From Aminobacter aminovorans (GTDB lineage Bacteria; Pseudomonadota; Alphaproteobacteria; Rhizobiales; Rhizobiaceae), in contig NZ_UFSM01000001.1 in the NCBI RefSeq assembly GCF_900445235.1, forward strand, positions 4,541,501-4,605,500: a stretch of 64,000 nt of DNA, given 5' to 3'. How positions within the stretch are numbered: position 1 is the stretch's first letter; each line of letters opens with the position of its first letter. Of the stretch, positions 41,791 to 59,482 are shown in pieces. The position numbers were made by a program, and so were the translations under genes. The notes beneath the pieces are model-generated. The model made no database searches and was not told the DNA's origin. It was given only the letters and a program-made list of their open reading frames with translations.

Positions 41791-41795
41791 CGGCG

Positions 41796-42571: not shown

Positions 42572-43588
42572 TCAGCGGACCGGCGGGGCGTACATCAGGC
42601 CGCCGGCATTCCACAAGGCGTTGATGCCGCGGTCGATCTTGAGCTCGCTCGACTGGCCGAGATTGCGCTCGAAGATCTCGCCGAAATTGCCGACCTTGGA
42701 GATAATGTTGTAGCTCCAACGCGGATCGAGACCGAGCTGCTGGCCGCTGTCACCCTCAGCGCCGAGGAAGCGCTTTATGGCAGGATTATCCGAGGACAGG
42801 CCGGCTTCGGCATTGTCCTTGGCAATGCCGAGTTCCTCGGCCTCGAGCAGCGCGAACAGCGTCCAGCGGACGATGTTGAACCACTTGTCGTCGCCCTGGC
42901 GGACGGCAGGTCCGAGCGGCTCCTTGGAGATGATCTCCGGCAGGACGACATAAGCCGCAGGATCGGTGAGCTTCAAACGCTGGGCATAGAGTGCGGAGGC
43001 ATCGGTGGTGTAGACGTCGCAACGGCCGCCGTCGAAGGCCTTGACGATGCCGTCGGCGGAATCGATGACCACCGGCTCGTATTTCATCTTGTGGGCCGAG
43101 AAATAGTCGGCGACGTTCTGCTCGGTCGTGGTGCCCTGCTCGGTGCAGACCGTGGCGCCATCGAGCTTGAGCGCACTGTCGACGCCAAGGGCCTTGCGGA
43201 TCATGAAGCCTTGGCCGTCATAATAGGCGGTGCCGACGAAACGGATGCCGAGGCTGGAATCGCGCGACAGCGTCCAGGTCGTCTGGCGCGACAGCACGTC
43301 GACGCTACCCGACTGCAGCGCGGTGAAGCGCTCCTTGGTCGACAGCGGCACGTAGCTGACCTTTTCCGGATCGCCGAGCACGGCTGCCGCCACGGCGCGG
43401 CAGAAGTCGATGTCGAAACCGGACCATTTGCCGGCATCGTCGGGCGCCGAGAAGCCGGCGACGCCCTGGCTGACGCCGCAGGTAAGTTTGTCGCGCTGCT
43501 TGACAATGTCAAAGGTGTCGGCTGCTGCGGGCATGGCCATCGCGGCCGAGCCCAGCAATAGTGCCGTTGCAAAAATTGTCCTCATCAT
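42572..43588 (-). CDS. amino acid ABC transporter substrate-binding protein (family 3, AapJ-like)
   Basis: A 338-residue periplasmic binding protein with a signal peptide (ATALLLGSAAMAMPAAA). Segments KLTCGVSQGVAGFSAPDDAG, WSGFDIDFCRAVAAAVLGDP, TKERFTALQSGSVDVLSRQT and PEIISKEPLGPAVRQGDDKW match AapJ-type general amino acid receptors. No permease or ATPase gene is nearby, so it must use a transporter elsewhere. A second ATG one codon in is possible. It follows the fusion gene on the same strand (119 bases). Confidence 0.93.
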   Translation of the reverse strand: MMRTIFATALLLGSAAMAMPAAADTFDIVKQRDKLTCGVSQGVAGFSAPDDAGKWSGFDIDFCRAVAAAVLGDPEKVSYVPLSTKERFTALQSGSVDVLSRQTTWTLSRDSSLGIRFVGTAYYDGQGFMIRKALGVDSALKLDGATVCTEQGTTTEQNVADYFSAHKMKYEPVVIDSADGIVKAFDGGRCDVYTTDASALYAQRLKLTDPAAYVVLPEIISKEPLGPAVRQGDDKWFNIVRWTLFALLEAEELGIAKDNAEAGLSSDNPAIKRFLGAEGDSGQQLGLDPRWSYNIISKVGNFGEIFERNLGQSSELKIDRGINALWNAGGLMYAPPVR

Positions 43589-43707: not shown

Positions 43708-46700
43708 CTACGCGCCTTCGACTAACGCCGCGGCGAACGCCTCCTCGAGCACGCCGACAAGATGGTCGGCATTGGCACGGCTGAAGATCATCGGCGGACG
43801 CATCTTGAGCACATTGTCGTGTGGGCCCTCGGTGCCGATCAAGACGCCACGGGCGCGGGCGCCGTCATTGACCTTGCGGGCGAAGGCGGTCGCCGGTGCC
43901 TTGGTCTTGCGGTCGGTGACCAGCTCGATGCCGAGGAACAGCCCCTGGCCCCTGACGTCGCCGATGACCTCGTAGCGCTGCTGCATCTCCCTGAAGCGCG
44001 CGACGAGATAGGCCCCGACATCGGCGGCATTGTCGCGCAGGCGATCGCGCTCGATGACGTCGAGCACGGCGAGGCCTGCGGCACAGGACACCGGGTTGCC
44101 GCCGAAGGTGTTGAAATATTCCATGCCGTTGTTGAAGCGGTCGGCGATCTCGTGCGTGGTGACCAATGCCGACATCGGGTGGCCGTTGCCGATCGGCTTG
44201 CCCATGGTGACGATGTCGGGGGTAACGCCTTGCGTCTCGAACGCCCACCAGTGGCTGCCGACGCGGCCGAAGCCGACCTGTACCTCGTCGGCGATGCAGA
44301 AGCCGCCGGCGGCACGCACCATGGCGTAGACTTCTTTCAGGTAGCCCTCGGGGAGAAAGACCTGGCCGGCGACGCTTGGGATGGATTCGGCAATGAAGAA
44401 GGCTGGCGCGCGACCCTTTGTGCGCATCGTCTCGATCTGCTCGGCGATGCTTTCGGCGAAACGCCTGGCATGTTCCTCGACCGGCCAACCATCCGGCGCG
44501 TGGTAGCTGTCGGGGATGGTTGCCTCGAAGACATGGGCGGGTCGGCCCTTGCCTCCCTTGCGTTTGTATTTGTAGGGGCTGAGGTCGATCAGCTCCTGGG
44601 TGGTGCCGTGATAGGCCCAGTCGAGCACCAGCGCATCGTCGCTGCCGGTCAAGGTGCGCGACATGCGCAGCGCAAGCGAATTGGCCTCGCTGCCGGAGCA
44701 GGCGAAGGAAGCGACCGACAGGCCCTCGGGCAAGGTCGCCGTCAATCGCTCGGCATAGGTGACGATGGCGTCGTGCAGGTAGCGCGTGTTGGTGTTCAGT
44801 CTTGCTGCCTGGGTGGCGATCGCCTCGACGACATCGGGATGGGCGTGGCCGAGGTGGCAGACATTGTTGAAGCAATCGAGATAGGCGCGGCCACGGTCGT
44901 CGACCAGCCAGGCACCCTCGCCGCGCACGAACTTGATCGGCTCGGAATAGGAGATCGACAGGTTGGGCAAGAGCGAGGCTTTCCGCGCGGCGACGATCTC
45001 GGGGCGGGTGCGGCCGGTCTGGTGGAAGGTCTCCGGCGGGATGCCGGCAAGGGTAGCTGCATCCGGGAACAACTCGGCCCAGACGTCGAGATAACGCGCC
45101 TCGCCGACGCCGAGGATGTCGCGGGCCGCGAGATCGGGGTCGGCCGAAATCTGGAAATGCAGATGCGGCGCCCAGCCGCCATTCTCAGTCGGCGTACCCA
45201 TTTCACCGACCAGCGCGCCGGCTTCGAGCGTCTCGCCCGGCTTCAGTCGGGCCATCGCCTCATGCGCCATGTGGCCCCACAGCGTGACGAAGGGCGGGCA
45301 GCCTTCAGGCGTGTGCTCGAGCGCGATCAGGCAGCCATAGCCGAGCGGATCGTCCTCGATCTCGACGCTTTTCACCGTGGCGGCAAGCGGCGTGTAGACC
45401 TTCGTGCCTGCCGGCAAAAACAGGTCGAGGCCGAGATGATGGACCCGGCGGGCGCCTTCGACGAAACGCGACCAGAAGATGTCGGATGTGTAGACCGTGC
45501 GTGCCTCGCCCCAGGGGCCGATGCCGAGCTCGACACCGTGCTCGGCGCACCAGGCATCCCACCAGGCGGTGGCCTTGTCGGGCTCCTGGCCGGCCGAAGT
45601 GATCGTCATCGGATGAGCCGGATCGCCATAGGGCACCAGCGCCTTGACCAGGGTTGCCGGGTGACGATCGAGCACCGGTGCAAAACTCTTTCTGTTGGCT
45701 TCGATCCAGGCGGTGACGGCGCGGGCACCTGATACCGCGTCGAAGCCGCAGGCGTGGCGCAGGATGGCGGTGGCGAACCGGCGGTTCATCGCGCCGAGGC
45801 GGCGCAGCAGCCGCCAGGCCGGCGCCTCCGAGATGGCGAGATAAGGATTGTCGCCGGTCTTTTCCTTGCGCTGCGCCGACAGCGTGACCGAGATGACGAG
45901 GCGCATGGCGATGAGGTCGAACAGGAGATCGAGCTCCTCTTCGCGCAACGGATATTCGGCATGGAAGCCGGCGGCCAGGGTCGCCGCGGCGCCGATCGGG
46001 TCCTCGACATCGAGGATCGAATAGGCGCAGGCGACCGCCACCTCGGCGATCACAGGCGAATAGAGCGCGTCGCCGAAATCGATGATGCCGGCAACCCGGT
46101 CGTGGGCGTCCTGATCGACGAGCACGTTCCAGTCATTGGCGTCATTGTGAATGACCTGGGCGCGCAGGCCGGCGAGACGGGGCGCCACGGCGACGTCGAA
46201 ATGATCGAGCAGGCGGCGCAAAAGCGCGCGGTCCGTGACATCTGGCACATGGTGCAGGCGTTGGCGCGCGGCGCCGGCCTGGCGGATGTCCCAGTCGAAG
46301 CTCCTGATCGCGCCGGGATGGATGAAGCCCTGCAGCGCGCCGTCGAGCCGGCCAAGCGCACGGCCGAGATTTTCGAGCAGCTTCGGGGTGCGCGCCGCTT
46401 CGGCGAGCGGCAAGCCGGGCAGCCAGGACACCAGCCGAAGCGCATGGCGCTCGCCTGAGGCACCGGTGGCTTCCGCAAGGGCGCCACCGTCAGCGGACAG
46501 CTTGAGCCGGGGGGCGGCGACGCCCGTGCGCGCGAGATGATCGAGCAAGGCGACCTGGAATTCGCTTTCGGCGGCAGGCTCGCTGGCATTGACGACCTTG
46601 AGGATCCAATGCGCGCCATCGTCGGCCGAGAGCTTGAAGTTCTGGTCGCGCTCGCTGTCGAGGGCTGCGACGCGACCACTGACGCCAAACCGGCTCGAAG

Positions 46701-46758
46701 CCAGGTCGGCGGCCTCGCCAAAGGAGAATGCGGGCGCGGGATGGGTCACGTCGGTCAT
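43708..46758 (-). CDS. trifunctional fusion: APH-type kinase, M23 peptidase domain, class III aminotransferase/phospho-lyase
   Basis: A 1016-residue cytosolic protein. Residues 1-345 are an aminoglycoside phosphotransferase-fold kinase (HNDANDWN 204-211, DFGD 227-230). Residues 415-545 are an M23/LytM-like domain with ligands H441, D445, H532 and H534. Residues 595-1010 are a class III PLP enzyme (DEVQVGFG with D824; MGKPIGNGH with K854). The two end domains match hydroxylysine kinase and 5-phosphohydroxylysine (or phosphoethanolamine) phospho-lyase, so it should phosphorylate an amino alcohol and then eliminate phosphate. The role of the M23 domain is unknown, since there is no signal peptide. 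It is divergent from an Lrp-type gene and heads the binding protein/Nudix/DmpA set. Confidence 0.92.
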
Positions 46759-46832
46759 GTTCTATCCGGAATTGCTGTAACTGGAGCTTGGCACGGGCCG
46801 AAAAATCGGGCATCCGGCAAAGCGTCGGTTGC

Positions 46833-46864
46833 ACCGGCACTATGACTGCATGGACCGGCACTTT
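46833..46864. promoter_or_regulatory. direct repeats 21 bases apart, candidate Lrp site
   Basis: ACCGGCACTAT (46833-46843) and ACCGGCACTTT (46854-46864) lie 21 bases apart, two helical turns, just before the Lrp-type gene and about 75 bases from the divergent fusion gene. In-phase repeats suit an Lrp octamer. This is inference from position. Confidence 0.5.
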
Positions 46865-46888
46865 AACGGCACAGATCGGAACGGGGCG

Positions 46889-47326
46889 ATGAAGGAACTG
46901 GACACCAAGGACAGGGACATTCTGGGCATCCTGTCGAAGGAAGCGCGCATCCCGCTGAAGACGCTTGCCGGCCGCATCGGGCTCTCCCGAAGTGCCACCA
47001 GCGAGCGGGTCGCTGCGCTGGAAAAGAGCGGCGTCATTCGCGGCTATCGCGCCGATATCGGCCAAATGGATAGCAACCTGGTCTCGGCCTTCCTGATGGT
47101 GACGCTGGTGAGTACGCCGTCGATGGGAGTGCTCGACCAGTTGGCGCGCTACTCGGAGGTACGGCGGGTGTCCTCCGTCACCGGCCAGCTCGACCTCATG
47201 GTCGAGGTCGAGGTGCCGTCGATCGACCGCCTCAACACGCTGCGCGACATCATCGCCACCCATCCCAGCGTGCAGGACCTGACGACGCTGATCGTGCTGC
47301 GCCGCGATATCGAGCGGCTGGAGTGA
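46889..47326 (+). CDS. Lrp/AsnC family transcriptional regulator
   Basis: A 145-residue Lrp-type regulator. The HTH is LDTKDRDILGILSKEARIPL, KTLAGRIGLSRSATSERVAA; the RAM domain is VSAFLMVTLVSTPSMGVLDQ with VTGQLDLMVEVEVPS. Amino acids are the usual effectors. The ATG at 46889 gives the standard N-terminus; ATG 46850 or TTG 46829 would add a His-rich leader. It is divergent from the kinase/phospho-lyase fusion, which it most likely controls. Confidence 0.9.
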   Translation: MKELDTKDRDILGILSKEARIPLKTLAGRIGLSRSATSERVAALEKSGVIRGYRADIGQMDSNLVSAFLMVTLVSTPSMGVLDQLARYSEVRRVSSVTGQLDLMVEVEVPSIDRLNTLRDIIATHPSVQDLTTLIVLRRDIERLE

Positions 47327-47419
47327 GGGAGCCGGCGCGCTTCCGAATACGTGTCGCTGGCAGCGCGGAGACTTTCGCGCTATGCGCCTGCCCAGTCCTG
47401 CCCGAGGCGAAGAACTTAC

Positions 47420-47920
47420 GTGACCATCCGGACAATCGTGAAATTTCCCGACCCGCGCCTCAAGCTTGTCGCCGAGCCGGTGGCGGCCTTTGACGACGAA
47501 CTGCGCACGCTGGCAGCCGACCTGCTCGACACGATGCGCGCGGCACCCGGCATCGGCATCACGGCCCCGCATGTCGGCATCGCCAGGCGGGTGGTGGTCC
47601 TCCAGCTCGAAGGCCCTGAAAGCGCCCGGACCTACGTCAACCCCGGCATACTATGGACCTCGGAGGAGACGCTCCTGCACACCGAAGGCAGCGTCTCGAT
47701 GCCCGGCGTGACCGACGAGATCAGGCGCCACGCACGGGTGCGCATCGGCTATCAGGATCTCCAAGGCATCGAACGCACCGAAGAGGCGGAGGGCCTGCTC
47801 GCCGTCTGCCACCAGCACGAGATCGACCAGTTGGACGGCATGTTCTGGATTCAGCGGCTGTCGAAACTGAAACGAGACCGGCTGGTCAAGCGCTACGAGA
47901 AGCTGCAGCGGGCGATCTAG
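47420..47920 (+). CDS. peptide deformylase-like protein with altered metal site
   Basis: A 166-residue deformylase fold: VKFPDPRLKLVAEPV at the N-terminus, then GIGITAPH (44-51), EGSVSMPG (89-96) and HQHEIDQLDG (131-140). Active deformylases have GxGLAAxQ, EGCLS and HExDH. Here the metal-ligand Cys is Ser91, the second His is Gln137, and motif 1 also departs (GITAPH). H133 and E134 remain. The enzyme may be inactive or have a new activity. The GTG at 47420 follows GAGGCGAAGAAC. It lies 93 bases after the Lrp gene. Confidence 0.88.
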   Translation: MTIRTIVKFPDPRLKLVAEPVAAFDDELRTLAADLLDTMRAAPGIGITAPHVGIARRVVVLQLEGPESARTYVNPGILWTSEETLLHTEGSVSMPGVTDEIRRHARVRIGYQDLQGIERTEEAEGLLAVCHQHEIDQLDGMFWIQRLSKLKRDRLVKRYEKLQRAI

Positions 47921-47942: not shown

Positions 47943-49391
47943 CTACGCGGTCACCGGCCATTTCGGCAGCTTGATCCTGGTGTAGGGCAGGCTGGCGAGA
48001 TTGGAGGTGACGGTGCCTTCAGAGGCAGCGTAGATCACGGCGCTGGCAACCTTCTCGTAGGACGCGCGGAAATGCTGCGTCGACTTGACCACCACCATCC
48101 GCTTGTCGGCGAGATCGCAGCCGATATTTGTGAACAGGTCGGTGTCGATCGCCTGCGACCGCTCGGAGGCCAAGAGCACCTCGACGCCGCCGCAGTCGAT
48201 CAGGGCGCAATCGCCCATCGGCGACGGCACGCCGCCAAGGCCGGTCATGACGAGGCCGCGTTTGAGAGCTTTGACGCGGCAGGTGACATCGACGGGATCG
48301 CCGGAGCGCGGGCCGACCTTGCCGCCGACGCGCAGCTGTAGCACCGCCCCCTCACCCGCCTCGAACACCAGGCGAACGGCGATCGGATCCCACAACGGGC
48401 CGATCACGGCATCCGAGACGCCGCGCGCGATCATGCGGGCGAGGAAGAAGGTCGAGTCGCTGGCGGCACCGCCGCCGGCATTGTCGGCGGTGTCGGCAAT
48501 GACGACCGTGCCGGCTGGTGCAACAAGGGCCTGATCGAGCGCCTCGTCGATCGAGGGCATCGGCGGCACGATCTCGGAGCGCATGACGTAAAGATCGTTT
48601 GCCAGCCGCTGGGCCAGCGACTGCGCCAGGTCCTGGTTGTCGTCTGTGTAGACAACGACGCGCGTTCCCATCTCGGGCACGTCGGCCCAGGGGAAACCTT
48701 GCGCGATCGACACCGACAGCACCTTATCCTTCTGCTCCATGGCGCGGATGCCGTTGATGATCGACAGCCCGGGTTCGGTGGTGGTCCGGATGAAGGTGAC
48801 CATGCCGGTGTCGACGAGCGCTGCCTTGGGCTTGATCTGGCCGGTGGCGATGCGATGGCAGAGGTCGACAAGCTGGACGCCGCATTCATAGACGTCGGTG
48901 TGGGGGTATTCCTTGTAGGTCAGCAGGATGTCGACATTGTCGATCATCTCTGAAGTCATGTGGCAGTGCGGGTCGAGCTCGCAGCCGACGACCGTGTCTG
49001 GGCCGACGATCGCGCGGATGCGGGCGAGGATGTCGCCTTCGCAATCGTCATAGCCATCGGCGACCATGGCGCCGTGCAGCGACATCAAGACCATGTCGAC
49101 CGGCAGGACGGCACGGAGGTCGTCGAGCAGCTGGTCGCGCAGCGTCTCATAAGCGTGCCGGGTCGTCGTGCCGCCTGGCTCGGCCGAGGCGCTCAGCCCT
49201 TCGAACAAAGTCCAGCCCTCGCGGCGGCCACGTTCGCGTGCTGCCCAGAGCTGGCCGCCATAAAGCGTCATGTGGTCCGGATGCTTCCCGGCAGGATAGT
49301 AGTCGCCGCCATTCACGAAGGCGCCGAGGCCGGTGGGGATGGGCGAGAAGGTGTTGGTCTCGGTCGCAAGGACGGCACTGAACACACGCAT
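47943..49391 (-). CDS. M81 family metallopeptidase (MlrC-like)
   Basis: A 482-residue M81 protein: MRVFSAVLATETNTFSPIPT, LPVDMVLMSLHGAMVADGYD, VGCELDPHCHMTSEMIDN with candidate zinc ligands H142 and H144, and VIADTADNAGGGAASDSTFF. The family includes MlrC, which breaks down the linear tetrapeptide of microcystin, a D-amino-acid-rich peptide. It is the last gene of the D-peptide operon, 22 bases after the COG0523 gene. The native substrate is inferred from context only. Confidence 0.92.
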   Translation of the reverse strand: MRVFSAVLATETNTFSPIPTGLGAFVNGGDYYPAGKHPDHMTLYGGQLWAARERGRREGWTLFEGLSASAEPGGTTTRHAYETLRDQLLDDLRAVLPVDMVLMSLHGAMVADGYDDCEGDILARIRAIVGPDTVVGCELDPHCHMTSEMIDNVDILLTYKEYPHTDVYECGVQLVDLCHRIATGQIKPKAALVDTGMVTFIRTTTEPGLSIINGIRAMEQKDKVLSVSIAQGFPWADVPEMGTRVVVYTDDNQDLAQSLAQRLANDLYVMRSEIVPPMPSIDEALDQALVAPAGTVVIADTADNAGGGAASDSTFFLARMIARGVSDAVIGPLWDPIAVRLVFEAGEGAVLQLRVGGKVGPRSGDPVDVTCRVKALKRGLVMTGLGGVPSPMGDCALIDCGGVEVLLASERSQAIDTDLFTNIGCDLADKRMVVVKSTQHFRASYEKVASAVIYAASEGTVTSNLASLPYTRIKLPKWPVTA

Positions 49392-49413
49392 GATGGATAA
49401 CTCCGCTTGCGAA

Positions 49414-50322
49414 TTAAGAGGCAATAATTTCGGCGAGGCCGGCATGCGCCGTCTCGGTGTCGAGTACTCTGGCCTCGGCGATCAGGACGAGGCGGCAATC
49501 GGGCTCGAATTTCGGGAACGGGCGCAAGGTGGCGCGGCGACCGACGAGTTGCAGCAGGAAGCTCTGCCCCGGCCGCTCGACGAAACTGACGATGCCCTTG
49601 GCGCGGATGAGCCTGGGCGCAAGCCGGTCGATGGCAGCCTGGAAGCGGTCGAGCGCGACCGGTCCTGATGACTGCCATTCGATCGAGGTGAAGCGCGATG
49701 CACCGACCTTGGCCTGGCCCGGCGCTGGCTGCGTCCGGTCTGTGACGAGCAGCGCCTCGATCGGCAAGGCATCGCCATCGGTTTCGAAGACCAGCGTCTT
49801 GTTGAGCCAGACGAGTTCCGCCCGGAGTGCTTCATCGGAGCTTTCCCTCAACCCGGTCTTGGACAGGGCGATGAAATCGGCCGCCTCGACCTGGGCGCGC
49901 CAGAGCTCGTCGCGCAGGCGGGTCGGATTGGCGGCGACCTCATCGGCGTCGACCACGGCAACGACAGCATCGAGGCGGATGTCGTGCCACAGGATCGGGT
50001 CCATCAGCGTTTCGGTGATGCCCCTGGGGTCGGCGACCCCACTGGCCTCGATGACGATGTGGTCCGGCTTGACGGGCTGGGACAGCACCATCTTGAGCGT
50101 GCGCAGAAGGTCGCCCTGCAGCGAGCAGCAGATACAGCCGTTCTTGAGCCCGACGACGGTGTCGGCGGCATCCGCGATCAATTCGGCGTCGATGTTGATG
50201 GCGCCGAAGTCGTTGACGATGGCGCTGATCCGACGGCCTGCGGCACGCTGCAGCAACTGGTTGATGAATGTCGTCTTGCCGGCACCGAGAAAGCCGGTGA
50301 CGACGAGGACAGGAACGCTCAC
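49414..50322 (-). CDS. COG0523 (CobW/YeiR-type) metal GTPase
   Basis: A 302-residue G3E GTPase: P-loop GFLGAGKTT, metal motif GCICCSL (C63, C65, C66), switch VIEASGVADP and a short CobW C-domain (ASRFTSIEWQSSGPVALDRF...). These proteins deliver Zn, Co or other metals to client enzymes. The GTG start overlaps the stop of the D-amino-acid deacylase gene (GTGA), and the M81 peptidase follows it, so its clients may be one or both of these metallohydrolases. Confidence 0.9.
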   Translation of the reverse strand: MSVPVLVVTGFLGAGKTTFINQLLQRAAGRRISAIVNDFGAINIDAELIADAADTVVGLKNGCICCSLQGDLLRTLKMVLSQPVKPDHIVIEASGVADPRGITETLMDPILWHDIRLDAVVAVVDADEVAANPTRLRDELWRAQVEAADFIALSKTGLRESSDEALRAELVWLNKTLVFETDGDALPIEALLVTDRTQPAPGQAKVGASRFTSIEWQSSGPVALDRFQAAIDRLAPRLIRAKGIVSFVERPGQSFLLQLVGRRATLRPFPKFEPDCRLVLIAEARVLDTETAHAGLAEIIAS

Positions 50323-51812
50323 CGGTCACCCCGCCTGATCGGGCGCCCAGGTGCTGCCGCCTGATTGAGGATGCCGTCCGAGATCACCGCCTGGCCATTG
50401 ACCAGCACGTGGCGAATGCCCTGGGCGGGCAGGTTCATCTCGGCGAAGGTGGCGCGGTCGGCGACGGCGGCGAGATCGAAGACGACGATGTCGGCATCGC
50501 AGCCCGGCTGCAGCCGCCCCTTGCGCTTGAACAGCGGCGCGCAGCTCTCGACGATCCGCGCCGGGATGAGCGTGCATTTGGCAATCGCTTGGGCAAGCGG
50601 GATGGCGTCGCGCTCGCGCACCCACTGGCGGAGAAAGCGGGTGAAGGTGCCCGAGGATCTGGGGTGCGCCGTCTTGTCGGCTCCGAGCGGCCACTCATTG
50701 CCCTCGTAGGGCGAGCCGTCGGGCTGGCTCCATGGCATGGCGTCGGAGGCGATGGCGCCGCCGGGATAGGTGACGGAGACGTCGAGCAGCGCGCGGTGGC
50801 GCGGATTGTCCTCGGTGTCGAGGAAGTGCCAGAGCACCAGCGCCGAGGGATCGGACTGCCTGACCTGCTTGAGGTCGTCGATGCCGTCGAGGCGGCGATG
50901 GGTGGCGACAAGCTCGATGGCGTCGTAGCCGGTGCCGGTGCGGGCGGAAAAGGCCGGATCGACGAAGAAGCCGGCGCTGACGACTGTCGAGCCGGTGCCA
51001 TAGGGATAGGCTTCGGTGGTGATCCTGAGCCCTTGCGCCTGCGCCCGGGCAATGATCGCCGCGGCTCGCTCGACGTCCTGAAGACTGGTCGAGTTGAGGT
51101 GGCAGATGTGCATATGCGCGCCGGTGGCGCCGGCCAGTCCGATCAAGGTGACATAGGCCTCGATCGAGCTCTTGGGGTCGATGTTCGACATCTGCGCGAT
51201 GTGGGTATAGGTCGGCGTGTCGGTTTCGGCGGCGAGATCGCAGATCAGGCTCATTTCCTTGGCGCCGGCGCCGGGCGCGTAGCCGGCGGGAATGCCGATG
51301 CCGAGGCCGCCCTCGTCGATGCCCTGACGGGTAAGTGCCACGATCTCGTCTGCCTGCGCTTCGGTCGCAGCGTCCGTCGACCAGCGCGGATCGTCGAAGC
51401 CGCGTCCCATCACTGTGATCGGCGCTTCGCCGGGCTTGAGTTCCAGTCCGATCATCACCGCCTTGCGGGCGAAGACCCAGGCTGACGCCGTGCCGTAATT
51501 GAGCAGGCGCGCGGTCCTTGACTGCGCCTCGTACCAGCCGGCGACCGGCAAGGCACCGACTTCGAGTTCGAGCGCCGTGGTGACGCCATCGAAGGCCTGC
51601 ATGCGGTCGGCGGGCACGGACTGGCCGTGCGCATGGAGATCGATGAAGCCGGGGGCAACGATCAGGCCGCTTGCGTCGATCACCTCAAGCGCCGAGCCGA
51701 GATCGGCACCGATGGCAGCGATGCGGCCGGCCGAAATGGCAATGTCCGAAATTTCGTCGCGGCCGGTCTCGGGGTCGATGACGCGCCCGCCCTTGATCAC
51801 GATGTCATGCAT
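50319..51812 (-). CDS. N-acyl-D-amino-acid deacylase-type amidohydrolase
   Basis: A 497-residue amidohydrolase of the D-aminoacylase/D-glutamate deacylase group (COG3653). VAPGFIDLHAHGQS holds the H60/H62 metal pair; AHMHICHLNSTSL and SDAMPWSQPDGSPYEGN carry further ligands. SGTFTRFLRQWVRERDAIPL is a family marker. It releases the acyl group from N-acyl-D-amino acids. The ATG at 51812 overlaps the upstream ATPase gene by 8 bases. Confidence 0.92.
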   Translation of the reverse strand: MHDIVIKGGRVIDPETGRDEISDIAISAGRIAAIGADLGSALEVIDASGLIVAPGFIDLHAHGQSVPADRMQAFDGVTTALELEVGALPVAGWYEAQSRTARLLNYGTASAWVFARKAVMIGLELKPGEAPITVMGRGFDDPRWSTDAATEAQADEIVALTRQGIDEGGLGIGIPAGYAPGAGAKEMSLICDLAAETDTPTYTHIAQMSNIDPKSSIEAYVTLIGLAGATGAHMHICHLNSTSLQDVERAAAIIARAQAQGLRITTEAYPYGTGSTVVSAGFFVDPAFSARTGTGYDAIELVATHRRLDGIDDLKQVRQSDPSALVLWHFLDTEDNPRHRALLDVSVTYPGGAIASDAMPWSQPDGSPYEGNEWPLGADKTAHPRSSGTFTRFLRQWVRERDAIPLAQAIAKCTLIPARIVESCAPLFKRKGRLQPGCDADIVVFDLAAVADRATFAEMNLPAQGIRHVLVNGQAVISDGILNQAAAPGRPIRRGDR

Positions 51813-52626
51813 GGACAGCCCTTTCGGCGGCGCGGCGCTTCTTGCCCGGAACGGCATCGATCAGCCGGCGGGTGTAATCGGACCTCGGCGTGCGGAAGAT
51901 TTCTGACGTCGGGCCGACCTCTTCGAGCACGCCGTGGTTCAATACGCCGACACGCTGGCACAGATGATCGACGACCGACAGGTCATGCGAGATGAACAGC
52001 ATCGCCAGCCCCTGTTCGGTGCAGATCTTGCGCAACAGCTGCAGCACCTGCGCCTGGCTGGAGACATCGAGTGCCGACACCGGCTCGTCGGCGATCAGGA
52101 GCTTCGGGCCCGATGCCAGGGCACGGGCGATGGCAATGCGCTGGCGCTGGCCGCCGGAGAACTGGTGCGGAAAGCGCTCGATCCAATCAGGGTTGAGGCC
52201 GACCTGCTGCATCAGATCGGCAGCGCGCTTGGTCAGTGCCGCGCCCTTGAGGTCGGTGTAGGATTTGAGCGGCTCGGCCAGGATGTCGCGCACGCGCCAG
52301 CGCGGATCGAGTGAGGCATAGGGGCTCTGGAATACCATCTGCACGTCGCGCCGCTTGTCGCGCAGAGCCTTGCCGCGCAAAGCGAGCCAGTCGACGCCAT
52401 CGAAGCTCACCGAGCCGGCGCTCGGCTCGGTCAGCCGCGCGATGATGCGGCCGATCGTCGACTTGCCCGAACCGCTTTCGCCGACGAGCCCGAAGGCCTC
52501 GCCGCGCCGGATGGAAAAGCTGACGTCGTTGACGGCGGTGAGCTGCCGCGGCTTCTCGAAAAGGCGCCCGGACAGGGTGAAATGGCGGACAAGACCGCTG
52601 ACTTCGAGCAGGACGTCATCAACCAT
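51805..52626 (-). CDS. dipeptide/oligopeptide ABC transporter ATP-binding protein (DppF-like)
   Basis: A 273-residue ABC ATPase: Walker [10 protein letters not shown], signature QFSGGQRQRIAIARAL, Walker B LLIADEPVSALD, H-loop ISHDL. It is DppF-like and works with the second ATPase immediately upstream. The ATG at 52626 overlaps the preceding stop by 8 bases. Confidence 0.94.
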   Translation of the reverse strand: MVDDVLLEVSGLVRHFTLSGRLFEKPRQLTAVNDVSFSIRRGEAFGLVGESGSGKSTIGRIIARLTEPSAGSVSFDGVDWLALRGKALRDKRRDVQMVFQSPYASLDPRWRVRDILAEPLKSYTDLKGAALTKRAADLMQQVGLNPDWIERFPHQFSGGQRQRIAIARALASGPKLLIADEPVSALDVSSQAQVLQLLRKICTEQGLAMLFISHDLSVVDHLCQRVGVLNHGVLEEVGPTSEIFRTPRSDYTRRLIDAVPGKKRRAAERAVHA

Positions 52627-53455
52627 GAGCGGCCTCCGCCAGCATGTGACCGGCGCCGAAACTCGGCCGCGCATTGAGCAATTGCATGGTGTAGGCATGC
52701 TTTGGACGGCTCAGCACGTCGTCGACATGACCCGCCTCGACAACGACACCGTCCTTCATAACCACGACGTCCTCGCAGACATCGCCGACGACGTCGAGGT
52801 CATGGCTGACCAGGATCATCGCCATGCCCTGCTCGCGGCTCAGCTCCTGCATCAGCCCGAGGATCTGCGCCTGTACGGTCACGTCGAGCGCGGTTGTCGG
52901 CTCGTCGGCGATCAGCAGAGCAGGCTTCAGTGCGATCGCCGCGGCGATGACCACGCGCTGGCGCATGCCGCCCGACAATTGATGCGGATAGGCGTCGATT
53001 CGGCGGGCAGCGTCCTGGATGCCGACGCGTTCGAGCAGCTCAAGGCTGGCAGCGCGGATCGCCTTGCGCGACATGTCGGGGCGGTGAAAACGGAACACCT
53101 CGCCGATCTGGTCGCCGACCGGCATGACCGGGTTCAACGTCGCCATCGCATCCTGGAACACCATGGCGATGCGGTTGCCGCGCAACCGGCGCCAGTCGCG
53201 CCTGCACAAAGCGAACAGGTCGCGACCTTCGAAGGTGACCGCACCGCCGAGAATGGCATGCGACGCATCGGTCAGCCCCATGAGCGCATAGCCGATCGAG
53301 GATTTCCCCGACCCGCTTTCGCCGACGACGCCGAGCACCGAGCCGGGCGCGACCTCGAAACTGACGCCGCCCACGGCGCGGACCGGACCGCGGCGGCTGG
53401 GGTAGTCGACTGTCAGCTCGTGGACGGAAAGCAAGGGCGAGGCCGTCATGGTCAC
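52619..53455 (-). CDS. dipeptide/oligopeptide ABC transporter ATP-binding protein (DppD-like)
   Basis: A 278-residue ABC ATPase: Walker [10 protein letters not shown], signature [16 protein letters not shown], Walker [14 protein letters not shown]-loop VSHDL. The N-terminus and position fit DppD. The GTG at 53455 overlaps the permease stop by 4 bases; the ATG at 53449 is an alternative. Confidence 0.94.
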
Positions 53456-54348
53456 ATCCGCTCCAGTCGGGGATCGAAATAGTCGCGCAGGAAATCACCG
53501 AACAGGTTGATGCCGACCGAAGAGATCAACACGGCGATGCCGGGCGCAATGACGATCCATGGCTGCTCGTAGAGGAAGTCGCGACCTTCCGAGATCATGA
53601 CACCCCAGGATGCCGTTGGCGGCTGGACGCCGAGACCGAGAAAGGACAAGGCTGCCTCGGAGATGATGACCAGCGCGATGTCGAGCGTGGCGACGACAAG
53701 CACCGCCGGCAGCACGTTGGGCAGGACGTGAGTGAAGATGATGCGCATCTGCGACACGCCCATGGTGATCGCCGCGTCGACATAGTCGAGCGTGCGGATC
53801 CGCATGGTTTCGCTGCGCACGATGCGGGCGAAATTGATCCACAGCGCAAACGCCAGCGCCATGACCAGCGTGGCGAAACCGGCGCCCAGAACGGCCATGA
53901 AGATCAGCGCCAGAAGCAGGAACGGAAAGGCGAGCTGGAAATCGACGATGCGCATGATGATGGTGTCGACGATGCCGCCGAAATAGCCGGCAAGGGCCCC
54001 GAGCGTCGCGCCGACGACAAGTGCTATCGACACCACGATCAGCGCTACCTGGATCGACACCTGTGCGCCCATGACGGTGCGGCTGAGTATGTCGCGGCCC
54101 ATATTGTCGCCGCCTAGCAGGTTGGTGGTCGAGCCGCCCTCCTGCCAGACAACAGGGGCGTAGCGCCATTCGATGACCTGCTTGGCGTGATCGTGCGGGG
54201 CGATGGATTTCGCAAAGAGCGCACAGAGCACGACGATGGCGATCAGGAACAGGCCGGTCAGGCCCTTGGCGCTGCGGCCGAGGCTGCCGAGGAAGCGCCG
54301 CTCCGGGACGGGCCTCGTTGCAGCGGGAACGATCACGGCCTCAGTCAT
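53452..54348 (-). CDS. dipeptide ABC transporter permease (DppC-like)
   Basis: A 298-residue permease with six membrane helices: a soluble N-terminus (VPERRFLGSLGRSAKGLTG), then TNLLGGDNMGRDILSRTVMG (the DppC GTDxxGRD motif) and an EAA loop near YVDAAITMGVSQMRIIFTHV. It forms the translocation pore with DppB. It overlaps the DppB gene by 8 bases. Confidence 0.93.
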   Translation of the reverse strand: MTEAVIVPAATRPVPERRFLGSLGRSAKGLTGLFLIAIVVLCALFAKSIAPHDHAKQVIEWRYAPVVWQEGGSTTNLLGGDNMGRDILSRTVMGAQVSIQVALIVVSIALVVGATLGALAGYFGGIVDTIIMRIVDFQLAFPFLLLALIFMAVLGAGFATLVMALAFALWINFARIVRSETMRIRTLDYVDAAITMGVSQMRIIFTHVLPNVLPAVLVVATLDIALVIISEAALSFLGLGVQPPTASWGVMISEGRDFLYEQPWIVIAPGIAVLISSVGINLFGDFLRDYFDPRLERM

Positions 54349-55330
54349 TGCGCACCCTCGGGTCGATGAAGCGGTACAGGATGTCGACGATCAGGTTGAG
54401 CGAGATGAACAGCGCCGCAGACACCAACACCACCGCCTGGATGATCGGATAGTCGCGGACATGGATGGAATCGACAGCGAGCCGGCCGATGCCGGGCCAG
54501 GCGAACACCGTCTCGATGACCACAGTGCCCGACAGGAGCGCGCCCATCTGCAGGCCGGCCAGGGTGACGATGGGCAACAGTGCGTTGCGCAAGGCATGGC
54601 GCAGGATGATGGTGAGGCGCGGTGCACCCTTGGCGGTGGCGAAGGTGATGTAATCCTGCTGCAGCACTTCCAGCATGGCCGAACGGATCAGCCGCGCATT
54701 GACCGCCACCAGAACGAAGGCGAGCGAGATCGACGGCAGGATGAAGTAGCGGAAGGCGTTCCAGAAGATGCCGATGTCGCGTTCGGCGACGGCGCGGCCG
54801 ATGCTGGCCAGGGCCGAGCCGCGATAACCAGAGGCGGGCAGCCAGCGCAACTCGATCGAGAACCACAGGATCATCAGCACGGCGAGCAGGAAGCCCGGCA
54901 TAGACACACCGAGCACGGCGATGAACGTGCCGGCATAATCCAGCCAGCTGTTGCGCTTGAGTGCGGTGACGATGCCGAGCGGGATGGCAATGACGAAGGC
55001 CAGGAGCAGCGTCCAGAAGGCGAGTTCGCCAGTCGCCGGGAGGCGGTCGGCGATCAGGCTGGTGACCGGGACTCCCTGGCGGATGGAGGTGCCGAGGTCT
55101 CCCTGCACGGCATTGCCGAGATAAGCGACGAACTGCTCGGGCACGGAGCGCGTCAGCCCCATCTTCTCGCGCAGCGTGTCCATGTCCTGGACGCTCATGC
55201 CGGGATTGCCGGCGGCAATCACGTCGACCGGATCACCCGGCACGAGCTTGACCAGCGAGGCCACCACAAGGATGACCCCGAGCAGGATGACGGCCGCATA
55301 AAGCAGCCTCGATACGACCAGCCTCAGCAT
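54341..55330 (-). CDS. dipeptide ABC transporter permease (DppB-like)
   Basis: A 329-residue permease: RLLYAAVILLGVILVVASLV at the start, then KLVPGDPVDVIAAGNPGM, and an EAA loop YITFATAKGAPRLTIILRHA. Six helices are traceable. It follows the binding protein gene by 13 bases. Confidence 0.93.
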   Translation of the reverse strand: MLRLVVSRLLYAAVILLGVILVVASLVKLVPGDPVDVIAAGNPGMSVQDMDTLREKMGLTRSVPEQFVAYLGNAVQGDLGTSIRQGVPVTSLIADRLPATGELAFWTLLLAFVIAIPLGIVTALKRNSWLDYAGTFIAVLGVSMPGFLLAVLMILWFSIELRWLPASGYRGSALASIGRAVAERDIGIFWNAFRYFILPSISLAFVLVAVNARLIRSAMLEVLQQDYITFATAKGAPRLTIILRHALRNALLPIVTLAGLQMGALLSGTVVIETVFAWPGIGRLAVDSIHVRDYPIIQAVVLVSAALFISLNLIVDILYRFIDPRVRND

Positions 55331-55343
55331 CCGTCGGCGCGGG

Positions 55344-56948
55344 TCACGAGGCCATGCCGAGATGGTCGATGCGCAGCTCGCCGGCGGGGTTCATGCGGGC
55401 GTCGACGACGTCCTTGGCAACGACGGCAAAGTTGAGCGGTTCGAACAGCGGCTTCCAGTAAGCCTCGGTGACGACCTTGGCCTGAATCTTGTCGAGGATG
55501 GCTTGGCGCGCCGCCGGATCGGAGGTCACGCGCTGCTCGGCGATCATGCCGTCGAGTTCGGCATTCTCGTGGAAGGCACGGTTGAGCGCGCCTTTGGTGT
55601 GCAGCACCGGGTAGACGATGTCGGCGTCGGTGTAGGAATAGGTCGAGATGACCAGGTCCTGCCCGCCTTGTGCGGTGATGGCCGCCCACTGTGCGATCGG
55701 CAGGGTTTCGATTGTGATTTCGACGCCGATCTCGCGCAGCTGCGCCTGGACTACCTCCGCCGTGCGGCGGATGACCGGCGTGTCATTGGCAACGAGCTTG
55801 ACCTTGAGGCCCTTGTCGAAACCAGCCTCGGCCAGCAGCGCCTTGGCCTTCTCCGGATCGTAGCCATAGGAAAGCTCGGCGGTCTTGGGCGAATAGCCTG
55901 ATATGGAGCTTGCGATCGGCGACGTCGCCGGCACGGCGAAACCGTCGAGCGCAAAGGCGATCAGCCGCTTCTGGTCGATGGCATGCGCAAAGGCCCGGCG
56001 CACCTTCGGATTGTCGAAGGGCGGACGCTTCTGGTTGAACACCAGCGCCCGCATCATCTGGGCGGGGCGCTCGAGCATGATCGCGTCGGGATTGCCACGC
56101 AGGCGCCGCACGCTGTCGAGCGGCACCGAGGAGCCGCCATAGATGGCGTTGATCTCGCCGGTTTCGAAGGCGGCGATGCGGGTGGAGTCCTCGGGATAGT
56201 GCGAGAGCTCGACCGCATCGATGCGCGCGGGCGCGGCAACGGAGGCGTAGTCGTCGTTGCGCTCAAGCCGCATACCGCGATCGGTCGACCAGGACACGAA
56301 CTTGAACGGGCCGGCGCCAACCGGCTTGCGGCCGAACTGGTCGCCTGCCGCTTCGACGGCGGCGCGCGAAATCGGCGCGGAATAGCCGAGCGTCAGGCCG
56401 ACCCAGACGGCAACGAAGGGCTCCTTGAAGTGATAGGCGACGGTCAGCGGGTCGACCGCCTCGGCGCGCTCCAATGGTCCGAGGAAGAACGCGCTGGGCG
56501 AAGCGGCCTCGGGCGCCAGATGGCGCGCGACTGTCCAGGCGACAGCCTCGGCATCGCAGGGCGTGCCGTCATGGAACTTGACGCCGGGCTTGAGTTTGAA
56601 GGTCAGGGTCTTGTTGTCGTTGCTGAAGGCCCAGCTCTCGGCCAGGCCCGGCAGGACCTCGCCGTCATAGCCGGCGCGTGCCAGCGGCTCGTAGATCAGG
56701 TCCATCGTGGTCGAGGAGACCGACAAGGTGGTCTTATGCGGATCGAGCGTGTCAGGCTCCTCCGCACGGCCGACGCGCAACGTGCCGCCGGTCTGCTCAG
56801 CCAGCGCCTTGCCGGGCATGCCAAGCATGGCAACAGCCGTGATGGCTGCTGCACCACCGAGGAAGCCGCGGCGCGTAAGGGTCGCCTGGCGCAGATGGGA
56901 ACGCGCCAGCGCGTCGAACTGTTCGGGAGTGAGAGTGCGTAGGGACAT
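55344..56948 (-). CDS. ABC transporter substrate-binding protein, family 5 (peptide type)
   Basis: A 534-residue SBP_bac_5 protein with a twin-arginine-type signal (TRRGFLGGAAAITAVAMLG, residues 25-43). Mature marks are EPDTLDPHKTTLSVSSTTMD, LPGLAESWAFSNDNKTLTFK, LKPGVKFHDGTPCDAEAVAW and NPKVRRAFAHAIDQKRLIAF. It captures peptides for the DppBCDF set. The ATG at 56948 is used. Tat export suggests folding in the cytosol, perhaps with a cofactor, or it may still be Sec-exported. Confidence 0.93.
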   Translation of the reverse strand: MSLRTLTPEQFDALARSHLRQATLTRRGFLGGAAAITAVAMLGMPGKALAEQTGGTLRVGRAEEPDTLDPHKTTLSVSSTTMDLIYEPLARAGYDGEVLPGLAESWAFSNDNKTLTFKLKPGVKFHDGTPCDAEAVAWTVARHLAPEAASPSAFFLGPLERAEAVDPLTVAYHFKEPFVAVWVGLTLGYSAPISRAAVEAAGDQFGRKPVGAGPFKFVSWSTDRGMRLERNDDYASVAAPARIDAVELSHYPEDSTRIAAFETGEINAIYGGSSVPLDSVRRLRGNPDAIMLERPAQMMRALVFNQKRPPFDNPKVRRAFAHAIDQKRLIAFALDGFAVPATSPIASSISGYSPKTAELSYGYDPEKAKALLAEAGFDKGLKVKLVANDTPVIRRTAEVVQAQLREIGVEITIETLPIAQWAAITAQGGQDLVISTYSYTDADIVYPVLHTKGALNRAFHENAELDGMIAEQRVTSDPAARQAILDKIQAKVVTEAYWKPLFEPLNFAVVAKDVVDARMNPAGELRIDHLGMAS

Positions 56949-56974
56949 GGTGGACCTCGCCGTAGAGTGGATGA

Positions 56975-58531
56975 TCAGGCTCGCTTGAAGGCCAGTTTCT
57001 TGATGCGGTCGGAGTTCATTTCGAAGCCGTCGGCAGTCACCGCCAGCGTCGCGTTCCACGGCAGGCCGGGGCGCATATCGGTGCCGGGCTGAAGCAGAAA
57101 CCACAGGTCGACATCGGCCGCGACGATGGGGGCGGCCATGGCGCCGAGGCCGGAGCGCAGGCGGAACTCGCCCTTCGAGGCGTCGCCCGTGATCTCGACC
57201 TCGAGATCCTGCGCCCTGTTGACGTAGCGCCCGGCCAGCGGGCGCGCGGCGGCAACGCCGGCCAGAAGCGGCGCGTAGAGGCGCGGCGTGCCGCAGAAGA
57301 CACCATCGACCTTGCCGTCGGCGCGCGGGCTGAGCACCAGATCGGTGATGGCGCGCTCGGGCTTGGCGCCACCCTGGTGACCGAAGTCGAAACCGCCGAC
57401 GCCGCCGGCGTTGAGGAAGGTCGCAACGCCATCCTTGGCAACGATCTCGAAGACGTCGGGGCCGCCCTCCTGCCGGTAGCGACCGGGGGCGAGTGCGATC
57501 GGCGCCGGTGGCTTGTCGCCGAAATAGATATCGGCGATGCGCCGGCCGAGCGCGAAGGAGGCGACCTGGTCGTTGTTGGCGATGATGACGACGCCGAAGC
57601 CATCATCGACGAAGCGGGTCGATTCCGACTTGCCGCCGGCAACCGTGCCGCCATGGCCGACGGCGCGGCGTCCGCGATAGACGTCGGTAACGAGGCCGAG
57701 GCCATAGAAGCCTGTGGCGCCGTTGTCGAACACGCAGGGTGTTGCCATGCGCTCGTACATGTCGGGCGTGCCGACCTTGGGATCGAACAGGTTCTGCTGC
57801 CAGACGATCATGTCGTCGAGCGTCGAGATCATACCGCCCTCGCCGCCCAAATCGAGGCCCCAGTTGAGATTGGCCCAGCCTTCCTCGCGCCTGGTGTAGT
57901 GCGCAGCGAGCCGCTGCATCGCCGCGCCGTCGCGGATCAAAAGCGAGGTGTCGTCCATGCCGAGCGGGCCGGTGATGCGCTTGCGCAGCACTTCGTTGAA
58001 GGTCGCGCCCTCGATCTGCTCGATGATCTCCGACAGCATGAAGAAGCCGGCATTGCAGTAGGTCATGGCGCTGCCAGGCTTGAAGTTCAGCGCGTCCTGA
58101 CGAGAGATGACGTCGCGGCCGGTCTGGCGATCGGACGGCGTGAAGATCGACAAGCCGGCGAAGATCATCGCTTCGAGATGGTCGCGGAAGCCCGACGTGT
58201 TCGACGCCAGATGCGCGAGCGTCACCGGCTGTTCGAGACGCGGTACGTAAGGCAGGTGCTTCTGTACCTCGTCAGACAGGCTGAGCTTGCCTTCGGCCTC
58301 CAGCATCAGGATCAGCAGGACGGTGAACTGCTTGGTCTGCGAGCCGATGCGAATGATGGTCTTGCGGCCCATCGGCACCGCATTGTTGATATTGGCGAGG
58401 CCGTAGGCATTGGCGAAGATCTCGCGTCCGTTCTCGGTGACAGCGACGACGGCGCCGGGGCTGTCTGGGCCGGTGAAATCCTGAAACAGCGCATCGATGC
58501 GCGCGGCAAAATCGGCCGGTGCCTTGGTCAT
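56975..58531 (-). CDS. D-aminopeptidase (serine beta-lactamase-like family S12)
   Basis: A 518-residue enzyme matching D-aminopeptidase of Ochrobactrum in length and layout. Residues 1-330 are the penicillin-recognising domain: SQTK (S64, K67), YCN (158-160) and HGG (293-295). Two beta-barrel-like C-terminal domains (about 340-518) follow. The reference enzyme releases N-terminal D-residues from peptides; its known S62, K65, Y153 and H287 correspond closely here. There is no signal peptide, so it acts inside the cell on imported peptides. It is first in the operon; the ATG at 58531 is used. Confidence 0.9.
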   Translation of the reverse strand: MTKAPADFAARIDALFQDFTGPDSPGAVVAVTENGREIFANAYGLANINNAVPMGRKTIIRIGSQTKQFTVLLILMLEAEGKLSLSDEVQKHLPYVPRLEQPVTLAHLASNTSGFRDHLEAMIFAGLSIFTPSDRQTGRDVISRQDALNFKPGSAMTYCNAGFFMLSEIIEQIEGATFNEVLRKRITGPLGMDDTSLLIRDGAAMQRLAAHYTRREEGWANLNWGLDLGGEGGMISTLDDMIVWQQNLFDPKVGTPDMYERMATPCVFDNGATGFYGLGLVTDVYRGRRAVGHGGTVAGGKSESTRFVDDGFGVVIIANNDQVASFALGRRIADIYFGDKPPAPIALAPGRYRQEGGPDVFEIVAKDGVATFLNAGGVGGFDFGHQGGAKPERAITDLVLSPRADGKVDGVFCGTPRLYAPLLAGVAAARPLAGRYVNRAQDLEVEITGDASKGEFRLRSGLGAMAAPIVAADVDLWFLLQPGTDMRPGLPWNATLAVTADGFEMNSDRIKKLAFKRA

Positions 58532-58879
58532 GCCGGTCACTCCCTTACAGTTTTCGGATTGCCGGCGGCGCTGGGCGCTGCGCCGGATGTGCGTGGAAAG
58601 ACGTTGCCGCAGCGCATCTCGACTGGCGTCGATGCCGTGTCGTCCTGATGGCTGTCGCAACGCATGGTGCTGCCCTCCCGCAGTGGCCGTGGCAGCACGC
58701 CCGAGGCGCCCTGCAACGCAGGTGTTATCCTGCGAAAATCAAAACTTTTGCCGTTCCCGCTTTTTTGTGATGCAATCGGTAAGATTTCTTTTTGCATACG
58801 TCAAGTCGTTTGCGTAAACACTAAATCCCTGCCATTTTCAGAAAATGGAGCCGCTCATGCCGCCAAGACCGGAGACCAT
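58532..58879. promoter_or_regulatory. 348-base divergent control region of the D-peptide operon
   Basis: This gap lies between the D-aminopeptidase and XRE-cupin genes. The half near the regulator is AT-rich (58736-58830, with runs such as TTTTTTGTGATGCAATC and TTTCTTTTTGCATACG). It includes a near-palindrome GTTTGCGTAAAC (58808-58819), a plausible operator. The other half is GC-rich and featureless. No gene is supported here. Confidence 0.6.
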
Positions 58880-59482
58880 GTGACCCACCAACCGCGACTG
58901 AGCGAATGTTTGCGCGCCATGCGCCAGCGCCATGGGCTGAAGTTGCAGGAGGTCAGCGAGCGCACCGGGCTCGCACTCTCGACGCTGTCAAAGGTCGAGA
59001 ACGACCTGATGTCGCTGACCTATGACAAGATCCTGCAGATCTGCACGGGACTGGATATCCCGGTCACAGAGCTGCTCAACTTCGAGCCGGCAAAGGGCGT
59101 GGAGCGGACGCGGCGCTCGGTCGTGTCGGGCACCAACACGCTGCAGCTGGCGACTCGGAACTACGACTACCGCTATCTGTGCACCGATCTGGTCAACAAG
59201 CGCATGGTGCCGATAGTTGCCAGGATCCATGCCCGTACGCTGGAGCAATTCGGCCCGCTCGTCCGTCATGTCGGCGAGGAATTCGCCTATGTGCTCGACG
59301 GCGAGATCGAGATCCACACCGACCATTATGCGCCGACCCGGCTTGCCGCCGGTGACGGCGTCTACATCGATTCGACCATGGGCCATGGCTACGTCTCGGT
59401 CGGCGCCGGCGAAGCGACGATCCTATGCATCTGCTCGGCACCCGAATCCGGGCTGGAACAGGTACTGATCGACCAGGCCTAA
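58880..59482 (+). CDS. XRE family regulator with cupin domain
   Basis: A 200-residue regulator. An N-terminal HTH (LSECLRAMRQRHGLKLQEVSERTGLALSTLSKVEN) is joined to a C-terminal cupin (about 115-190: RHVGEEFAYVLDGEIEIHTD, with GDGVYIDSTMGHGY). This class (PuuR and relatives) often senses amino acids or polyamines. The GTG at 58880 is preceded by CGGAGACCAT; the nearby ATG at 58878 is out of frame and stops at once. It is divergent from the D-peptide operon. Confidence 0.9.
   Translation: MTHQPRLSECLRAMRQRHGLKLQEVSERTGLALSTLSKVENDLMSLTYDKILQICTGLDIPVTELLNFEPAKGVERTRRSVVSGTNTLQLATRNYDYRYLCTDLVNKRMVPIVARIHARTLEQFGPLVRHVGEEFAYVLDGEIEIHTDHYAPTRLAAGDGVYIDSTMGHGYVSVGAGEATILCICSAPESGLEQVLIDQA

Follow-up and report, generated by a model that had tools for sequence, protein, structure and literature searches.

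A nine-gene operon of Aminobacter aminovorans with a strictly paired amidohydrolase and CobW GTPase and a possible role in the breakdown of D-residue peptides

A stretch of 64,000 nucleotides from the genome of Aminobacter aminovorans (contig NZ_UFSM01000001.1, positions 4,541,501 to 4,605,500; hereafter the window) carries nine genes on the minus strand (47943-58531) in the order S12 serine hydrolase, ABC solute-binding protein (SBP), OppB, OppC, OppD, OppF, amidohydrolase, CobW GTPase and M81 metallopeptidase, and a gene encoding an XRE-cupin protein is divergent from them. Analysis confirmed this operon as a coherent, conserved unit; the strongest finding, and also the most surprising one, is a strict pairing of the amidohydrolase gene with the CobW gene in related loci. 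With moderate confidence, we read the gene set as a substrate-inducible, XRE-cupin-repressed operon for the uptake and cytoplasmic hydrolysis of D-residue peptides or N-acyl-D-amino acids, equipped with a dedicated metal chaperone. No description of the gene set was found in a literature search, which covered titles and the beginnings of abstracts, left subscription papers mostly outside and is no proof of absence.

The pairing was determined from regions of at most 20 kb surrounding the amidohydrolase matches of relatives, and from 8 of 18 plasmid records; the other ten records (all with 38-42% identity) and the 20-kb stretches of two genomes of the family (G339 and G546), each of which carries an amidohydrolase and an S12 gene, lie outside this set. 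Where the amidohydrolase shares 59% identity or more with the one in the window, a CobW gene follows directly on the same strand in 22 of 22 rows, with match ends 0-54 bp apart; where it shares 46% at most, this holds in 0 of 10 rows (9 loci); the range from 46 to 59% is empty in the sample. The 22 rows represent 21 loci, since one Tistrella plasmid appears as both L102 and L120, and among these 21 are four from Aminobacter, three (L099, L119, L120) from one other genus and two from Sulfitobacter. Around the paired genes M81 was found in 15 of the 21 loci (at L014 only a 27% identical one), a DadA-like FAD oxidoreductase in 12, XRE-cupin in 9 and S12 in 7; the corresponding numbers for the 9 unpaired loci are 0, 1, 0 and 0. 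These counts are biased, as S12 led to 7 of the 21 paired loci and the queries for the FAD enzyme were themselves chosen from among the loci counted. Among the 14 paired loci found through the amidohydrolase, M81 was present in 8, the FAD oxidoreductase in 11 and XRE-cupin in 5.

Both partners of the pair deviate from their better known relatives. In the amidohydrolase H60, H62, E84, H204, H238 and D357 are present, with HxH and the catalytic Asp in a D-aminoacylase-type barrel. Subtype V of the amidohydrolases is defined, in the available text of PMC12017989, by a Cys/His/His metal site; the Cys column holds Cys in three of five annotated D-aminoacylases and in none of 26 amidohydrolase rows, and E84 is found in all 26. 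A CobW-specific metal ligand could not be assigned because the first-shell candidates occur both with and without a linked CobW gene; the residues that tell the two groups apart are D69, D141 and C191 only. A paralogue from the same genome (C4) was discarded as a D-aminoacylase reference, as by eye it is hydantoinase-like and lacks NCG. On plasmids of Acuticoccus and Streptomyces (L106, L107), a DJ-1/PfpI family gene is located directly beside the amidohydrolase gene. The CobW protein keeps the P-loop and GCxCC (23 of 23 rows, two of them from the same plasmid), but its guanine motif NKxD is not intact: it reads SKTG in the window, and the Asp is kept in 3 rows and gone in 20 of the 23. The choice of nucleotide may have changed in this subfamily. 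An intact NKXD is typical of the G3E family according to the available text of PMC2770081. In the same text the clients of COG0523 GTPases are mostly not obvious and dihydroorotase occurs as a Zur-regulated paralogue; the word amidohydrolase is absent from the main text, and ten of the fifteen subfamilies are described in its Additional Files. From its position, the CobW protein is likely to be the metal chaperone of the adjacent amidohydrolase.

The complete operon recurs in other genomes. A pattern-based scan of genome contigs with the S12 alignment gave 59 S12 loci, many of them short contigs, whose neighbours were called with the ten window proteins and FAD-oxidoreductase queries (tblastn, 1e-10). 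The full nine-gene order was found in five loci, four from Aminobacter and one from Phyllobacterium myrsinacearum, with 65-85% protein identity, and the XRE-cupin gene adjoins three of them (L004-L006). The nearest relatives belong to Aminobacter, with 97% identity for the S12 protein of A. ciceronei. Across all 59 loci M81 is present in 16, XRE-cupin in 12, the amidohydrolase in 7 and the FAD oxidoreductase in 6. In Microvirga soli (L015) all operon genes except M81 are in line, and M81, a FAD oxidoreductase and a gamma-glutamyltransferase are encoded just past the divergent XRE-cupin gene. A metagenome-assembled genome (L017) has XRE-cupin, FAD oxidoreductase, M81, S12, SBP and OppBCDF but lacks the amidohydrolase-CobW pair, and the short contig L016 carries the beginning of this order. 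S12 was found at E <= 1e-60 in 1 of 150 genomes of the order (the source genome alone) and in 4 of 297 genomes of the family, source included and one of the four only 38% identical. The amidohydrolase family was found at E <= 1e-100 in 4 of 142 genomes of the class and 12 of 297 of the family, and at 1e-150 in 6 of 385, with the source counted each time. Since both families are rare, the grouping of the genes is more than chance.

A second, diverged operon is encoded in the source genome itself (L112; C1, ~2347.1-2356.9 kb). It comprises SBP, OppBCDF, S12, M81 and a DadA-like FAD oxidoreductase, with an RpiR-like regulator ahead as judged by eye; its S12 is 28% identical over the catalytic domain, its M81 35%, and its FAD oxidoreductase is 45% identical to that of L093. 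The same gene order is found in another genus of the family (L135), where the S12 frame has one internal TGA. Two diverged S12 and M81 lineages, both with a peptide importer, argue for a shared pathway. A third related S12 gene (L134; C1, ~627-628 kb), whose product is 62% identical to the L112 protein, follows an SBP gene, with Opp ATPase genes close by, in a stretch with neither M81 nor a FAD oxidoreductase. The source genome has three matches to the M81 C-terminal family. As a yardstick for the FAD-enzyme counts, it holds 12 matches to one of these enzymes in 5.89 Mb.

Next to the linked FAD enzyme, the S12 fold is the only feature that points to D-chirality with some force. The catalytic residues named in the initial annotation (S64-xx-K67, Y158, H293) are all correct in the 518-residue protein read from 58531, and S64, K67, Y158, N160, H293 and G295 (motifs SxxK, YxN and HxG) are invariant in 97 aligned sequences. 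The predicted structural model matches the D-aminopeptidase 1EI5 over the full length (Foldseek, 534 columns, TM 0.82; VIA, 485 residues over 1-518) and shows the three-domain architecture of that enzyme, a catalytic domain followed by two beta-barrel domains. In D-aminopeptidase, as given in the available part of PMC9053604, Asp479/481 of a loop holds the substrate amine; judged by eye, D484 of the S12 protein may correspond to it in position, in a column that is not conserved among relatives. Esterases and other S12-fold relatives rank close behind 1EI5 in the fold search, so the S12 fold does not fix chirality. This, together with importer proteins that match general Opp/Dpp families and stay under every specific NCBIfam cut-off listed, would also fit ordinary scavenging of L-peptides without stereochemical specialisation, which we consider improbable in view of the full D-aminopeptidase architecture, the D-aminoacylase fold and the linked D-amino-acid-dehydrogenase-like enzymes. 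On a plasmid of Deinococcus sp. QL22 (L126), a serine hydrolase gene directly precedes an annotated D-aminoacylase gene, together with an RpiR regulator; pairs of an S12-like enzyme and a deacylase may thus occur in other phyla.

The closest solved relative of the M81 protein is MlrC (7YLQ). The zinc ligands E11, D140, H142 and H164, invariant in the 22 of 24 rows covering them, correspond to E39, D167, H169 and H191 of MlrC, and MlrC H133 and D332 are kept as well. In the accessible text of PMC9982164 the fourth zinc ligand is given as H191 in one place and as H196 in another; residue 196 of the MlrC chain is Glu. Ten substrate residues are named in the abstract of that paper, of which N41, D341, S392 and S485 are kept in M81 and E70 (L43 in M81), W59, F67, F96, Q468 and R492 are changed. 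In the literature available in part, MlrB was modelled on 1EI5 as an S12-type enzyme with a predicted signal peptide. The operon therefore holds both an MlrB-type and an MlrC-type fold, and a role like that of the mlr cluster, in breaking down microcystin or other cyclic peptides of cyanobacteria, was considered. It was set aside as very improbable because of the six changed MlrC residues and because no MlrA-type gene is among the nine genes (the rest of the genome was not searched for MlrA); in addition, no signal peptide is seen by eye in the operon S12, unlike in MlrB.

With the S12 start at ~58531 and that of the XRE-cupin gene at ~58880, ~348 bp are left between the two genes, which argues that the two outer starts in the initial annotation (58660 and, probably, 58664) were too early. 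An imperfect inverted repeat in this region (~58794-58813), which contains TCAAGTCGTTTG, is a weak candidate operator. A 12-mer with C or T at one position is found in the same interval of the window, of Aminobacter L004 and of Microvirga L015 and is absent, within one mismatch, from the other 15 of 18 loci scanned; with only 3 of 18 loci, an operator shared across relatives was rejected. Scans for sigma-70-type promoters (0 found, 1.2 in shuffles) and terminators (3 found, 5.3 in shuffles) gave no excess. According to the available text of PMC7901475, XRE-cupin proteins in Pseudomonas repress neighbouring genes, and PsdR controls a peptide-binding protein and a metallodipeptidase; DbuR, divergent from its own operon, represses genes for the oxidation of D-branched-chain amino acids (PMC12724383, available in part). 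The similar layout in the window supports local repression lifted by a pathway metabolite, and by this analogy the XRE-cupin protein is likely a local repressor of the operon.

In the pathway that we infer, with its substrate, chirality and order of steps, the XRE-cupin protein would repress the operon until the substrate induces it, and the Opp/Dpp-type importer would take in D-residue compounds, either small peptides or N-acylated amino acids. Once these are in the cell, S12 would cut peptide bonds after D-residues, and the M81 zinc enzyme would act on an amide that neighbours a D- or acidic residue. The amidohydrolase would strip the N-acyl group, with its metal supplied by the CobW GTPase encoded beside it. 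The freed D-amino acids could then be oxidised by a DadA-like FAD enzyme, whose gene is part of the cassette in many relatives and lies at another place in the source genome. Since no signal peptide is seen by eye in the S12, amidohydrolase and M81 proteins and the SBP has a Tat-type signal, hydrolysis is probably cytoplasmic.

Several findings weigh against this D-residue reading. The S12 protein scores 164.8 bits, far under the cut-off of 443 of the D-aminopeptidase equivalog NF009622, and we know of no activity for any close relative found. The amidohydrolase has Val85 in the column of the subtype V metal-ligand Cys, and a carbohydrate deacetylase is among its closest solved folds. The window operon itself is without a FAD oxidoreductase, and of six FAD enzymes from relatives that were tested, two are nearest to the glycine oxidase ThiO and one has no NCBIfam match at 1e-15. 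The XRE-cupin gene was not found at two of the five full-order loci (L007, L011), and S12 at none of the 14 paired loci found through the amidohydrolase. Five Mesorhizobium loci (L008-L010, L012, L013) carry an S12 gene, 75-79% identical, without the operon, which speaks against an obligatory S12-operon coupling; these genes lie near another Opp cluster. Furthermore, relatives have TRAP or sugar-type transporters in place of the peptide importer. Octadecabacter and two Sulfitobacter plasmids have XRE / FAD oxidoreductase, TRAP transporter (three genes), M81, amidohydrolase and CobW, Roseomonas has XRE / M81, SBP, amidohydrolase and CobW, a TRAP transporter is next to the amidohydrolase-CobW pair in L090 and L092, and in L093 the M81 gene is beside a sugar-type ABC permease. 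Core cassettes without S12 and Opp genes and the changing type of transporter indicate a wider core to which S12 and the peptide importer are accessory.

A core of XRE-cupin, FAD oxidoreductase, M81, amidohydrolase and CobW could thus degrade a small N-substituted or cyclic amide (opine-, lactam- or N-acyl-amino-acid-like) rather than peptides, with S12 and the importer as local add-ons. The swapped transporters, the occurrence of S12 in a third of the CobW-linked loci, the deacetylase among the D-aminoacylase-fold enzymes and the third M81 gene of the source genome (L113), by eye beside a sugar-type ABC set, all favour such a function; we nevertheless regard it as rather unlikely, since S12, M81 and the peptide importer occur together in Aminobacter, Phyllobacterium, Microvirga and a metagenome-assembled genome as well as in the diverged second operon. 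The claim of the initial annotation that each enzyme family acts on D-residues was too strong, given the S12 score, an amidohydrolase that lacks the Cys and has a carbohydrate deacetylase among its closest solved folds, an M81 protein with the zinc site of MlrC and only four of the ten substrate residues named in the abstract, and relatives with TRAP or sugar-type transporters or with M81 beside sugar-type genes. A D-residue pathway as such is supported by the S12 architecture, the DadA-like enzymes of relatives and the Pseudomonas XRE parallels. We tentatively propose that the D-residue operon belongs to an undescribed, modular alphaproteobacterial catabolic system for N-acyl- or peptide-bound D-amino acids. 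At its core would be a novel subfamily of amidohydrolases whose metal site is of the Glu type and which depends on its own COG0523 metal chaperone with a changed guanine-binding motif; transporters and peptidases (S12, M81) would be plugged into the system per substrate.

The features are listed in Table 1. The nine minus-strand genes are overlapping or closely spaced, as first annotated, with spacings from S12 to M81, at the preferred starts, of +26, +13, -8, +2, -8, -8, -4 and +22 bp; the SBP start was placed at ~56948. Pfam and NCBIfam matches confirmed all genes at the family level, and the divergent regulator was confirmed by its HTH_3 and Cupin_2 matches.

Table 1 Features of the operon and its divergent regulator (positions in the window).
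Feature	Position	Strand	Evidence
S12 serine hydrolase, D-aminopeptidase-like, 518 aa	56975..58531	-	PF00144; catalytic residues; predicted fold matches 1EI5 over its length
ABC solute-binding protein family 5, Tat-type signal	55344..56948	-	PF00496; TIGR01409 21.1 bits, cut-off 16.7
OppB/DppB-type permease	54341..55330	-	PF00528, PF19300
OppC/DppC-type permease	53452..54348	-	PF00528
OppD/DppD-type ATPase (start possibly 53455)	52619..53449	-	PF00005; DppD-like NCBIfam match below cut-off
OppF/DppF-type ATPase	51805..52626	-	PF00005; DppF-like NCBIfam match below cut-off
Amidohydrolase NF006560/PRK09061, D-aminoacylase fold, without subtype V Cys	50319..51812	-	723 bits, cut-off 340; fold; residues
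CobW/COG0523 GTPase, likely metal chaperone of the amidohydrolase	49414..50322	-	PF02492 and PF07683 over cut-off; P-loop, GCxCC
M81 (MlrC-type) metallopeptidase	47943..49391	-	PF07364, PF07171; zinc ligands aligned to MlrC 7YLQ
XRE-cupin regulator, likely local repressor	58880..59482	+	HTH_3, Cupin_2 over cut-off; homologues match from 58880
Divergent intergenic region	58532..58879	.	candidate operator ~58794-58813

Convergent with the M81 end of the operon is a peptide deformylase gene (47351-47920, plus strand; NF009484, 274 bits, cut-off 190). Further along, a divergent Lrp/AsnC gene (46829-47326, plus strand) adjoins a gene for a 1016-residue fusion of phosphotransferase, M23 peptidase-like and class III aminotransferase domains (43708-46758, minus strand; NF004799, 1659 bits). 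A protein of Peptidase family S58, which we take to be the family of DmpA-type aminopeptidases, is encoded ~6 kb from the operon (40760-41926, minus strand; 362 bits), near a gene for a family 3 solute-binding protein (42572-43588).

D-amino acids are locked in bacterial cell walls and secreted peptides, and the recycling of these bound forms by bacteria is not well mapped. If the D-residue reading is true, the operon provides a recognisable gene signature for this recycling, on chromosomes as well as on marine plasmids, and, for a COG0523 GTPase, a clear prediction of the client that it would serve as chaperone; both proteins look soluble.

A peptide importer encoded with a D-peptidase is a known kind of system: dppABCDE of Bacillus subtilis and ddpXABCDF of E. 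coli resemble the operon in encoding a D-specific peptidase with a dipeptide ABC importer. Their peptidases belong to other families (M55, M15), and to our knowledge they have no amidohydrolase, CobW or M81. The D-aminopeptidase of Ochrobactrum anthropi (1EI5) has the three-domain fold and all six listed active-site residues in common with the S12 protein but is only 21-22% identical to it, and S12 stays below the NCBIfam equivalog cut-off. With D-aminoacylase and N-acyl-D-glutamate deacylase (1M7J, 3GIP) the amidohydrolase shares the fold, HxH, two further His and the catalytic Asp, but the metal-ligand Cys is replaced, an invariant Glu stands beside that position and the loop after that strand is shorter. 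MlrB and MlrC of the mlr cluster (Sphingomonas, Sphingopyxis; available parts of PMC11070527, PMC9982164 and PMC4810221) likewise combine a D-aminopeptidase-like serine hydrolase and an M81 enzyme in one peptide pathway; in contrast, the operon has no MlrA among its nine genes and has an ABC importer, an XRE-cupin protein and an additional amidohydrolase with CobW. The psdR-dppA3/mdpA and dbuR-dbuABC units of Pseudomonas resemble the operon in having an XRE-family repressor, of the XRE-cupin type in PsdR, beside genes for small-peptide uptake and cleavage or D-amino-acid oxidation; their enzymes differ, and no S12, M81 or amidohydrolase-CobW pair is named in the available text (PMC7901475, PMC12724383). 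Finally, the CobW protein has the P-loop, GCxCC and the assignment of a client from gene neighbourhood in common with the COG0523 subfamilies of Haas et al. 2009 (PMC2770081, available in part), and differs from them by its eroded NKxD.

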